A DNA stretch of 64,000 nucleotides from Rhodocyclales bacterium (GTDB lineage Bacteria > Pseudomonadota > Gammaproteobacteria > Burkholderiales > Rhodocyclaceae): the NCBI GenBank assembly GCA_016177805.1, contig JACOUN010000008.1, forward strand, positions 1-64,000, read 5' to 3'. Positions 1,291 to 4,533 of this stretch are shown piece by piece. The position numbers and the translations under genes are program-made. Position 1 is the stretch's first letter. Each line of letters begins with the position of its first letter. The notes beneath the pieces are model-generated. The model was given only the letters and a program-made list of their open reading frames with translations. It searched no databases and was not told the DNA's origin.

Positions 1291-1342
1291 GATGAGTCTC
1301 CGGTTGAATGTCCAGCTCCCAAACTACGCCGCCCACCCCCAC

Positions 1343-1392
1343 GGGAAGCTGACTCCAAGATGACATTACTGTCATCCTGGGGTCAGCTTCCC
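1343..1392. promoter_or_regulatory. Nested dyad operator (CusR/CopR-type box)
   Basis: A 50-bp perfectly centred nested dyad. The inner arms GATGACA (1359-1365) and TGTCATC (1370-1376) flank TTAC, so the core TGACATTACTGTCA (1361-1374) matches the TGACA-N4-TGTCA layout of the CusR box. The outer arms GGGAAGCTGAC (1343-1353) and GTCAGCTTCCC (1382-1392) sit 5 bp away on each side. It lies 53-102 bp upstream of the Met-rich gene. Given the response regulator at 2459, this is most likely its binding site. The symmetry could also form a hairpin, but no U tract follows. Confidence 0.7.
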
Positions 1393-1578
1393 GCCTGCCT
1401 GACTTGAGCGATCGTGATGAGCCACGTGGGAAAGCGAGCGCAGTGGTTCCATGCAACGAAAACGAAGTTTCGCCGCAGCCAAAAACCGGGCAAATATCGA
1501 CCGCTATTCCCATTGGCGCAATAGATCAGTCTCAAGCCCGACAGGCTGCCAGGGCGCACCACGGGAAATGGGAGGGAG

Positions 1579-2103
1579 TTACTCGGTCACCGTGACCTGG
1601 GCAATCATCCCGACTTCCATGTGTCCGGGAATCAGGCAGGCAAAGTCCACCTTGCCCGGTTTGTCGAACTTCCATACCAGGCCACCCCGCTGGCCCGGTT
1701 TGAGCGTGAGCATGTTGGGCTCTTCGTGCTCCATGCCGGGAAACTTGTGCATCATTTCGGCATGCGCCTTGAGGTCTGCCATCGAGCCAATCACCATCTC
1801 GTGGGTCATCGTGCCGGTGTTGCGTGCAAAAAAGCGGATCGTTTCACCCGCCTTGACGACGACGCTGTCGGGCACGAAGCGCATGCTGTCATCCATCGTG
1901 ACCTCGACGGCGCGCGTGACCTCGTCCGGATTGCCGGGGACACCAACGTTGCCCGCGTGGCCGCCACCTCGGGGCGCATCATGCATGTATCCAGGCTTCT
2001 CGCTGCGCCCGGGCATGGCGTGGTGCTGACCGCCGTGGTTGCCTCCGCCCAGGGCGAGCGTCGGCAGCAGGCTAATAGCAATCAGCGTCAGGGTGGTCTT
2101 CAT
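1579..2103 (-). CDS. Periplasmic cupredoxin (CopI-like)
   Basis: Encodes 174 residues: a signal peptide (about 1-19), a His/Met/Gly-rich linker (NHGGQHHAMPG and onward, to about residue 55) and a C-terminal plastocyanin-like domain. Type 1 copper ligands are all visible: His101 in MTHEM, then Cys156, His161 and Met166 in CLIPGHMEVGM. The layout of a metal-binding N terminus plus a cupredoxin domain resembles CopI proteins of photosynthetic and denitrifying proteobacteria, which confer copper tolerance. The start at 2103 gives the signal peptide, whereas the frame upstream of it does not look like an export signal. It is divergent from the two-component system at 2459, which probably controls it. 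Confidence 0.88.
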   Translation of the reverse strand: MKTTLTLIAISLLPTLALGGGNHGGQHHAMPGRSEKPGYMHDAPRGGGHAGNVGVPGNPDEVTRAVEVTMDDSMRFVPDSVVVKAGETIRFFARNTGTMTHEMVIGSMADLKAHAEMMHKFPGMEHEEPNMLTLKPGQRGGLVWKFDKPGKVDFACLIPGHMEVGMIAQVTVTE

Positions 2104-2257
2104 TTCTTGTTTCTCCGGGGTTGGGGGGTGTTGCCAGAAAATCGTCCGGGTCGGCTCGCCTTCGGCACGTGCAAGGCGGGGTGAAATCTCGCATCTCAAA
2201 CGCAGGCATGCCGGCCGATAGTCAGCGGTTCAGCGCGGCCACTGTTCCTGTTGGGAG

Positions 2258-2277
2258 AATACGTACGAATACGTACG
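2258..2277. repeat. Tandem 10-bp repeat AATACGTACG x2
   Basis: AATACGTACG occurs twice in direct tandem (2258-2267 and 2268-2277). Each unit contains the self-complementary cores TACGTA and CGTACG. A 10-bp period places the two copies on the same helix face. It lies 155-174 bp upstream of the cupredoxin start and could be a protein-binding site. No known regulator motif is recognised. Confidence 0.5.
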
Positions 2278-2367
2278 GACATGATGACTCCTGTGGGTCG
2301 GCGACGTAGACTTCCGCGGGTCTTGGCGCATGGAGGCGCCAGTCTGAGCATCGCGCCCCGTCAACCG

Positions 2368-2394
2368 GCTGACTTTACCATTACATCTTCGTCA
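2368..2394. promoter_or_regulatory. Second, degenerate CusR/CopR-type box
   Basis: GCTGACT (2368-2374) is followed, at the same spacing as in the dyad at 1348-1374, by TTACA-TCTT-CGTCA (2381-2394), a two-mismatch version of TGACA-N4-TGTCA. It ends 64 bp before the response regulator start, a fitting place for autoregulation. The shared GCTGACT half site at identical spacing supports a common composite operator. Confidence 0.55.
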
Positions 2395-2458
2395 CTTTGG
2401 CCAGATCGGATACGGACACTGGCACACTAGTCCGGTGGAGCATCCGGAGCATGCGGCA

Positions 2459-3142
2459 ATGAAAATACTCATCGTTGAAGACGAGGCCAAGACCGGCGAC
2501 TATCTGCGCCAGGGGCTGAGCGAAGCCGGTTTCACCACCGATCTGGCCCGCAATGGCATGGACGGGCTGCATCTGGCGCTCACCGGAGACCACGACCTGA
2601 TCATCCTCGACGTGATGCTGCCCGGCCTGGACGGATGGCAGGTGCTGGAGACGATACGGCGCAGTGGCAAGGAGATGCCGGTGCTGTTCCTGACCGCGAA
2701 AGACCAGGTCGAAGATCGCGTCAAGGGACTGGAACTGGGGGCCGATGACTACCTCGTCAAACCGTTTGCCTTTTCCGAGTTGCTGGCAAGAGTCCGCACC
2801 ATTTTGCGCCGTGGGCGAAACGGTACCGAACCGACCACGCTGGCCCTGGCCGACCTTGAACTCGATCTGCTGCGGCGCCGTGTCACTCGTTCGGGCAAAC
2901 GGATAGAGCTGACCGCCAAGGAATTCGCCTTGCTTGAGCTACTGCTGCGGCGGCACGGCGAAGTGCTGCCGCGCTCGCTGATTGCCTCGCAGGTGTGGGA
3001 CATGAATTTCGACAGCGACACCAACGTCATCGAGGTCGCGGTGCGCCGCCTGCGCAACAAGGTCGATGAGCCGTTCGAACCCAAGCTGATACGCACCGTG
3101 CGCGGCATGGGCTACGTCCTCGAAGAGCCGGAGGGCGATTGA
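2459..3142 (+). CDS. Heavy-metal response regulator, OmpR family (CusR/CopR-like)
   Basis: Encodes 227 residues. The N-terminal receiver domain has the acidic pair E7-D8, the phosphoacceptor Asp51 in LDVMLPG, and Lys in LVKPF near residue 101. The C-terminal winged-helix DNA-binding domain (about 130-225) carries [19 protein letters not shown] and the [11 protein letters not shown] ending typical of the CusR/CopR/SilR subfamily. The start at 2459 has GGAG ten bases upstream and removes eight residues that precede the conserved MKILIVEDE start. It overlaps the downstream kinase gene by 4 bp, so the two are translationally coupled. It is expected to activate the copper genes at 222-2103 through the dyads described here. 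That it senses copper rather than silver is inferred from neighbours. Confidence 0.92.
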
Positions 3143-4533
3143 AGTCCAAGTGGTCGATAACGACCCGCCTCACGCTGCTGTTCGCAATCGTGTCGAGCGG
3201 GGTGCTGCTCGCGTTCAGCGGCATCGTGATTTCGGCCATTGAAAAGCACTTCGTCGAACAGGACACGGACGCCCTGCATGGCAAGATGGTCCTGGTCGAA
3301 AGCGCGGTTGCGCGCGTCCGCGCGCCGCAAGAGCTGCAGGCGCTGGGCCAATTGCTACACGACGCGTTCGTGGGGCATGACGATCTGGTGATGCTGGCCC
3401 TGGCGCCGGATGGAACCACGCTTCACGCCTCGGCCGGCATCGACTTTCCCCTCGACCAGATACGGCGGATCGCCTCGGCGGGGCGCGTCGACACCTTCGA
3501 CTGGCAGGCCGGCAAGCAAGCCTATCGCGGGCTGGTGAAGACGATACGCAGCAGCATCCCGCCCGCCGCCGGCAGCAGCAGCATCGTCGTGGCGATCGCC
3601 ATAGACATCGACCATCACGCGACCTTCATGGCCCGCTTCGGCAAAACGCTGTCGGCGTTGGCCGCGGCGGCCGCGCTGACCTGCGGCCTGCTGGGATGGC
3701 TGATCGCGCACCGCAGCCTCGCGCCGCTACGCCAGATGAAAGAGCAAGCCTCGGCGGTAACCGCCAATCGTCTGGATACCCGCCTGCCGGAAGCGTCGAT
3801 TCCGGTGGAACTGGCCGGCCTGGCCGAAACGCTCAACCAGATGCTGGAACGGCTGGAGGATGCATTCAAGCGATTGTCGGACTTTTCCTCCGATCTCGCG
3901 CACGAACTGCGAACCCCGATCACCAACCTCACGACGCAGACCCAGGTCGCGCTCTCCATCCCGCGCGACGCGCAATCCTATCGGGAAACGCTCGGCTCGA
4001 ACGCGGAGGAGTTCGAGCACCTGTCCCGCATGATCTCCGACATGCTGTTCCTCGCCAAAGCCGACCACGGCCTGATGCTGCCGTCGTCGACAAGCATAGG
4101 GATCGAACAGGAGGTCGTGGAACTGTTCGACTTCTACGATGCGCTGGCGGAGGAACGCCAGGTCACCCTGAGCGTAGACGGTGACGGACAAATCACCGGC
4201 GATCGGCTGATGTTCCGGCGCGCAATCAGCAATCTGCTGTCCAACGCGCTGCGCCACACCCCTATGAAAGGACGGATCTCGGTCCACATTCAGAGCGCCG
4301 GCTCGCAAACCAGCGTCACCGTCGAAAACACCGGCCAGGCCATTGCCGCCGAAGACCTGCCCTACCTGTTCGACCGCTTCTATCGCGCCGACAAGGCCCG
4401 CACCCACACCTCATCGGAAGGCACCGGCCTGGGTCTGGCGATCACCAAGGCCATCGTCACCGCGCATCGCGGTCGGGTGGAAGTCACCTCGGATTCGAGC
4501 GGCACCCGCTTCACGCTGATCTTCCCGCGATAG
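3139..4533 (+). CDS. Heavy-metal sensor histidine kinase (CusS/CopS-like)
   Basis: Encodes 464 residues starting from TTG that overlaps the regulator's TGA (TTGA). Two membrane segments (about 10-33 and 169-191) bracket a periplasmic sensor of roughly 135 residues containing several His ([20 protein letters not shown]). A HAMP linker follows. The HisKA H box is [15 protein letters not shown] with His255, then the N box [15 protein letters not shown], the F/G boxes [13 protein letters not shown] and [11 protein letters not shown]. It autophosphorylates and donates to the regulator encoded just upstream. Length and motif order match the CusS/SilS family (about 460-490 residues). Periplasmic Cu(I)/Ag(I) as signal is inferred. 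Confidence 0.92.

Follow-up and report, generated by a model that had tools for sequence, protein, structure and literature searches.

A predicted directional promoter layout at two copper-type operator sites of a Rhodocyclales bacterium

Background

A contig of a Rhodocyclales bacterium (JACOUN010000008.1, assembly GCA_016177805.1; we refer to its first 64,000 nucleotides, the whole stretch of DNA analyzed here, as the window) carries the genes of a copper-type two-component system next to a cupredoxin gene and a gene for a Met-rich exported protein (Table 1), together with two intergenic sites built around an inverted repeat of the CusR/CopR type. The question raised by this locus is which gene each of these palindromic sites serves, in which direction, and what the additional half-sites around the core contribute.

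Results

The locus and its two sites

The first site lies between the cupredoxin stop codon and the start of the Met-rich gene, and the second in the intergenic region from which the cupredoxin and regulator genes diverge; the cognate heavy-metal OmpR-family regulator and its CusS-type kinase thus adjoin the copper box. A cytochrome c protein gene (Pfam PF00034; 222-605, reverse strand) lies just 3' of the Met-rich gene. No relative of the Met-rich protein was found encoded among plasmid records.

At the first site GCTGAC-N7-TGACA-N4-TGTCA is exact at 1348-1374 on the forward strand, as an earlier note on this DNA had reported, and again at 1361-1387 on the reverse strand (number expected in shuffled sequence, 0); the shorter TGAC-N7-TGACA-N4-TGTCA, at 1350-1374, falls within the dyad. 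That dyad, described in the same note as 50 bp long and nested with an 11-bp outer arm, is indeed present, at a measured length of 52 bp (1342-1393) with an outer arm perfect over 12 bp, and it is self-complementary at 46 of its 52 positions. The second copy, at 2368-2394 (2370-2394 in the TGAC-N7 form), is one-sided, and both its two core mismatches and its 18 of 29 bases identical to the first copy were reproduced as previously given. Relative to the inverted repeat TKACA-N4-TGTMA, which the first site matches exactly, the second core reads TTACA-N5-GTCA, with the right half one letter short.

We did not accept letter identity between the two copies as evidence in itself, since two unrelated 27-mers in the window also reach 17/27 identity; cores with at most two mismatches are no commoner in the window than chance (13 found versus 18 expected). 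It is the arrangement, not letter identity, that raises the pair of sites above chance, because a genome-wide scan found the exact core only once in the 3.48-Mb genome and the whole-promoter pattern described below gave eight matches, at up to two mismatches, versus none for the control.

Table 1. Features of the two sites and of the genes around them (positions in the window; offsets are counted from the start of the core)
Feature	Position	Strand	Basis
Met-rich exported protein gene, 159 aa	811..1290	-	ORF/translation; no Pfam family
Predicted -10 TAGTTT of Met-rich gene, +48 to +53	1321..1326	-	YAnnnT at +48 in 68/87 sites
Third tandem repeat CGTGGG, +31 to +36	1338..1343	-	G at +32 in 95% and at +36 in 83% of 87 sites
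Nested dyad, 52 bp, four TGAC-type half-sites around TGACATTACTGTCA	1342..1393	.	24-nt arms, 92% complementary
Promoter-proximal half-site GTCAGCTT, +21 to +28	1346..1353	-	11 bp from core, conserved
Core inverted repeat, AgrR/CusR/CopR-type box, Met-rich promoter	1361..1374	-	Full-promoter matrix 50.0
Promoter-distal mirror half-site GTCAGCTT	1382..1389	+	Matrix 29.1 versus 50.0; CGATCG at +48 there, no -10
Cupredoxin gene, CopI-like	1579..2103	-	Pfam Copper-bind; NCBIfam CopI 91-95 bits, under cut-off
Predicted -10 CAGACT of cupredoxin gene	2341..2346	-	Exact whole-promoter pattern match
Third tandem repeat TGACGG	2358..2363	-	Alignment and whole-promoter pattern
Half-site GTCAGCCG, directed at cupredoxin gene	2366..2373	-	Alignment and whole-promoter pattern
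Core of second site, TGACGAAGATGTAA	2381..2394	-	Full-promoter matrix 44.2
Candidate -10 CACACT of response regulator, +42 from core, armless side	2423..2428	+	Relatives' +42 peak; weak
OmpR-family response regulator gene, CusR/CopR/SilR group	2459..3142	+	TIGR01387, 360.6 bits, above cut-off
Sensor kinase gene, CusS sensor domain	3139..4533	+	TIGR01386, 476 bits, above cut-off; Pfam CusS

Conservation of the outer half-site

We sampled 80 loci around the closest homologues of the regulator and took every TKAC-N6-GTMA in them, giving 118 cores. An outer TGAC/GTCA half-site stands exactly 11 bp outward of 79 of these cores (on the left only in 66, on the right only in 5, on both sides in 8), and 39 have no exact outer half-site; five Markov shuffles yielded 79 cores, one of them with an outer half-site. 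Counted by offset, 87 half-sites fall at 11 bp and at most four at any other distance.

In a search made independently of the regulator, the extended pattern gave 63 matches in 44 of 250 genomes of the order, versus one match for the reversed control (the window's own genome gives four of the 63, the dyad being counted on both strands), and 24 of 30 loci fetched from these matches have a regulator or kinase homologue within a 3-kb stretch. The gene targeted by the arm, picked by a simple longest-ORF rule in 31 cases, encodes an outer-membrane efflux protein in nine, a DUF411 protein in two and a metal ATPase in one; the simple gene caller performs poorly in GC-rich DNA, and regulator positions were therefore taken from tblastn. 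A sparse sample of 369 genomes across the class held the extended pattern in only 14 (6 of 16 matches have an N6 gap), and with so few matches the main tests were made on the order and on the regulator's relatives. The proposal that the site is extended by an extra half element is thus borne out, and the outer GCTGAC arm, whose lack of conservation in relatives would have spoken against it, is conserved there.

A shared promoter layout

Two-armed sites were set aside, and we aligned 102 one-sided sites with the arm oriented after the core; 87 were kept after the removal of sites cut by contig ends and sites at least 80% alike. The core (0-14) and GTCA (21-24) were selected for in building this alignment, and three further features emerged unselected: a GCTT-like stretch at 25-28 that completes the arm, TGTCGG-like letters around +32 (two G positions stand out; Table 1) and a YAnnnT at +48. 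The resulting layout consists of an inverted core, GTCAG at +21, a TGTCGG-like repeat at +32 and a -10 element YAnnnT at +48. This -10 is present at 48 of the 61 sites taken from regulator loci and at 20 of the 26 taken from the pattern search, with at most 6 at unrelated offsets; the +32 repeat is weaker than the other elements (GTC[GA]G in 10/61 and 2/26). Leaving out Pseudomonas (76 sites) changed little.

The -10 at +48 lies on the arm side in 68 of the 87 sites and on the opposite side in 2. A regulator site that overlaps the -35 region, with a -10 at a fixed distance and no -35 consensus, is the arrangement of a class-II activator promoter, and the extra repeat keeps a conserved 11-bp register; a consensus scan of 700-2600 found no sigma-70-like promoter. 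The site as first described was incomplete: it left out the +32 tandem repeat, third of the series, and the -10 at +48. Three half-sites that point in one direction at intervals of 11 bp hint at added monomers or a tandem array no less than at the second dimer then envisaged. In the pho box of PhoB, tandem TGTCA half-sites likewise stand 11 bp apart, about 11 bp before the -10 and with no -35; it differs from the copper site in having no inverted core and in belonging to another branch of regulators.

These numbers bear on one alternative, a plain CusR box whose function rests on the inverted core alone, with outer arms owed to chance or flanking composition. The published CusR/CopR site does consist of the core by itself, and a third of the sampled cores (39/118) go without an exact arm, but the exact 11-bp register (87 versus at most 4), the genome matches (63 versus 1) and the coupling of arm to -10 (68 versus 2) all run against such a reading. 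So does the AgrR operator of Cupriavidus metallidurans, at which mutation of the promoter-proximal flanking repeat largely affected activation (PMC7380067, in the portion available to us). We consider the plain box highly improbable and retain the extended layout.

A promoter matrix built from the 87 sites, none of which comes from the window's genome, gives the first site a score of 50.0 when read toward the Met-rich gene and 29.1 when read the opposite way, and the second site a score of 44.2 when read toward the cupredoxin gene; the best score in the window outside both sites (5001-64000) is -11.1. Within the genome, the three exact matches to the whole-promoter pattern are the two window sites and a site before an efflux-protein gene on contig C105, and the one match with a single mismatch precedes an efflux-protein gene on C9. 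Among the four matches with two mismatches are the window dyad read in reverse, the divergent partner of the C9 site together with its shifted reading, and a C22 site in reverse. Read forward, the C22 site (matrix score 18.7) precedes a CopK gene (PF11525, 91.7 bits; L004 1581-1901) as a weaker copy of the promoter. The same promoter is thus found before other copper genes of this genome, as in a copper regulon (C105 and C9, and more weakly at CopK on C22). On C9 (locus L116), two sites stand about 43 bp apart between divergent genes for an efflux protein and a DUF2933/metal-transport protein.

Shorter or looser patterns were less informative genome-wide. The four-half-site pattern at three mismatches gave one promising place, the CopK site on C22, plus C67:116416, and the short pattern at one mismatch was not above its reversed control in this genome (20 versus 25). 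An exact short-pattern match on C86, inside a coding region, was dropped (matrix score -9.7).

Direction of the two promoters

Among 75 regulator-adjacent sites, the arm points away from the regulator in 70 and to both sides in 5, and never toward the regulator alone, which assigns the arm to the divergent effector gene. On the evidence of the -10, found on the arm side and hardly ever opposite, and of the fit of Escherichia coli cusC (see below), the genes driven by the arms are predicted to be the Met-rich gene (first site) and the cupredoxin gene (second site), not the regulator gene. The operator had earlier been assigned jointly to the Met-rich gene and the response regulator; the first assignment stands, and the second does not, the arm of the second site being directed at the cupredoxin gene. 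The regulator's own promoter seems to lie on the bare side of the core, where relatives have a weaker -10 signal (regulator-ward YAnnnT peaking at +42, 17/64).

One could also read the outer GCTGAC as a -35-like element, belonging to a promoter directed across the core at the regulator, given its resemblance to TTGACA and its place upstream of the regulator in 70 of 70 one-sided regulator-adjacent sites. The arm, however, also stands between core and target where no regulator lies behind it, as before the Met-rich gene and the C105 efflux gene; 68/87 sites have their -10 on the arm side; and the -10 signal in the regulator's direction is highest at +42, counted from the core start. Together these make a -35 role scarcely credible. 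The promoter points at the homologue in 3 of 11 Met-rich homologue loci outside the window's own genome, including the two closest, which have it in the same direction with scores of 40.9 and 52.9. Cupredoxin-homologue loci have the promoter in 9 of 29 cases, and none was found within 1.5 kb of the three closest cupredoxin homologues (L007-L009).

The predicted leader of the cupredoxin (CopI) message is unusually long, at about 230 nt. Within it lies an ORF of 28 codons (2196-2282, reverse strand) that has an AGGAG ribosome site and may encode a leader peptide. Also inside it is a perfect head-to-tail duplication of GAATACGTAC (2257-2276).

The mirror arm of the first site

The palindromy of the window dyad (23/26 per arm) exceeds that of all 110 other sites (best 20, median 11), and its second arm is missing at both closest Met-rich homologues. 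Eight of the 118 sites carry both arms. Six of these look bidirectional because they have a -10 on both sides (two of the six, L075 and L076, are near-identical); the remaining two, L072 and L080, have a single -10 and perfectly palindromic spacers between core and arm, and the window's spacers are nearly so. Over 88 sites, spacers are palindromic beyond re-paired controls (reached in 0 of 2000 shuffles), with 7/7 pairing in four sites versus 0.2 expected. This excess suggests palindrome-forming mutation at copper operators, and we infer template switching at the inverted repeat as its origin.

In another reading, close to the second dimer of the earlier note, the second arm is functional, accommodating an extra subunit or dimer and raising affinity; both arms do occur in 8 of 118 sites. 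We regard this as doubtful: six of the eight look bidirectional and the other two are near-perfect palindromes with one -10, the arm is missing at the two closest Met-rich homologues, and spacers form palindromes although their sequences differ, as fits a mutational origin. The second arm of the first site is instead probably an accidental mirror copy that lies outside the shared element, judging from its lack of a -10 and its absence from those two homologues. The four perfectly palindromic core-to-arm spacers, which differ in sequence, are at L072 1057, L080 3755, L062 3916 and L041 3122.

The dyad might also act as RNA, terminating the cupredoxin message or stabilizing its end as a hairpin; the reverse-strand RNA folds at -51.6 kcal/mol (z -7.5), and the dyad lies about 190 nt past the cupredoxin stop. 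No intrinsic terminator (a stem followed by a T run) was detected at the dyad, an Rfam search of the region returned only matches below the gathering score, and the dyad holds a core and an arm in promoter register. We therefore give an RNA role very little credence and treat the dyad as a promoter element with a mirror copy.

Relation to known operators

The window site is a known kind of operator, because flanking half-repeats have been published for AgrR, so that the outer half-site is already known from a related regulator: direct repeats flank the AgrR core, in phase with it, on one or both sides (PMC7380067). The likeness extends to a 16-bp inverted core (ATKACANNNNTGTMAT), a repeat that contributes to activation, a class-II position and an OmpR-family metal regulator. 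AgrR differs in concerning silver rather than copper, and its repeats are described as imperfect and present at some operators; the portion of the AgrR text available to us mentions neither a fixed offset nor a rule of direction, and neither a +32 repeat nor a -10 tied to the site. The footprints it reports reach only to between -26 and -40 relative to the start sites, mostly short of the +32 repeat (PMC7380067).

The CusR box of E. coli cusC (NC_000913.3) has the core, GTCA at +21 and TAAAGT, a YAnnnT, at +48, with spacing identical to that of the window sites, and scores 35.2 with our matrix; unlike the window's first site it has no G at +32 and no regulator-side arm, and it is not a 52-bp dyad. 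The earlier recognition of TGACA-N4-TGTCA as a CusR/CopR-type box was correct.

Pseudomonas CopR sites share the TGACA-type core, and the available portions of two reports give no spacing rule for them (PMC12428095, PMC11195947). In P. putida, the regions protected by CopR span 27-47 bp and are attributed to several TGACA-like motifs; the authors saw no usual -10 or -35 at the cop promoters and proposed an unknown sigma factor or mechanism (PMC12428095). Protection at copA1 (-89 to -43, start at -20) extends to about +37 in the present numbering, past the +32 repeat; at copA2 and copR1 the mapped starts are about 100 bp or more downstream of the protected regions, a distance that the layout leaves unexplained (PMC12428095). 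In P. paraeruginosa, one palindrome has different outcomes at two divergent genes (PMC11195947). As far as the accessible text of the literature on extended or directional copper boxes goes, we found no fixed layout in print, and nothing on such boxes beyond AgrR and the P. putida remark.

Discussion

We consider it likely, from these comparisons, that the regulator encoded at 2459-3142 (of the CusR/CopR/AgrR type) acts on both sites as copper-inducible class-II promoters, each directed by its arm, and that the mirror arm is accidental. The regulator would bind the inverted core TKACA-N4-TGTMAT; which way transcription runs would depend on the outer arm, making the Met-rich gene the target of the first site and the cupredoxin gene that of the second; the promoter of the regulator gene itself would fire from the bare side of the second core; and the symmetric second arm of the first site would most likely be a mirror copy without a part in this. 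Layout, conservation and direction are shown by the aligned sequences themselves; occupancy of each half-site, contact with polymerase and induction by copper are inferred.

The element is real and conserved, and its kind is known; the useful addition is the shared code and its tie to direction. On balance we lean toward the view that copper-type regulators of beta- and gammaproteobacteria use such a directional code (an inverted core followed by two half-sites of the same direction, one at +21 and one at +32, with a -10 at +48). If so, a single outer half-site makes a divergent palindromic core into a strong, one-way promoter and two make it two-way, which would explain the absence of a -35 and the different outcomes of the same palindrome at divergent copper genes; the direction rule could account in this way for the divergent outcomes in P. 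paraeruginosa (PMC11195947, as far as its available text describes them). The layout also offers an alternative to the unknown sigma factor suggested for the cop promoters of P. putida, and it makes the combination of inverted with tandem half-sites by OmpR-family regulators simple to test. Should it hold, copper-responsive promoters and their direction would be readable from sequence alone, including those of divergent gene pairs that share a palindrome.
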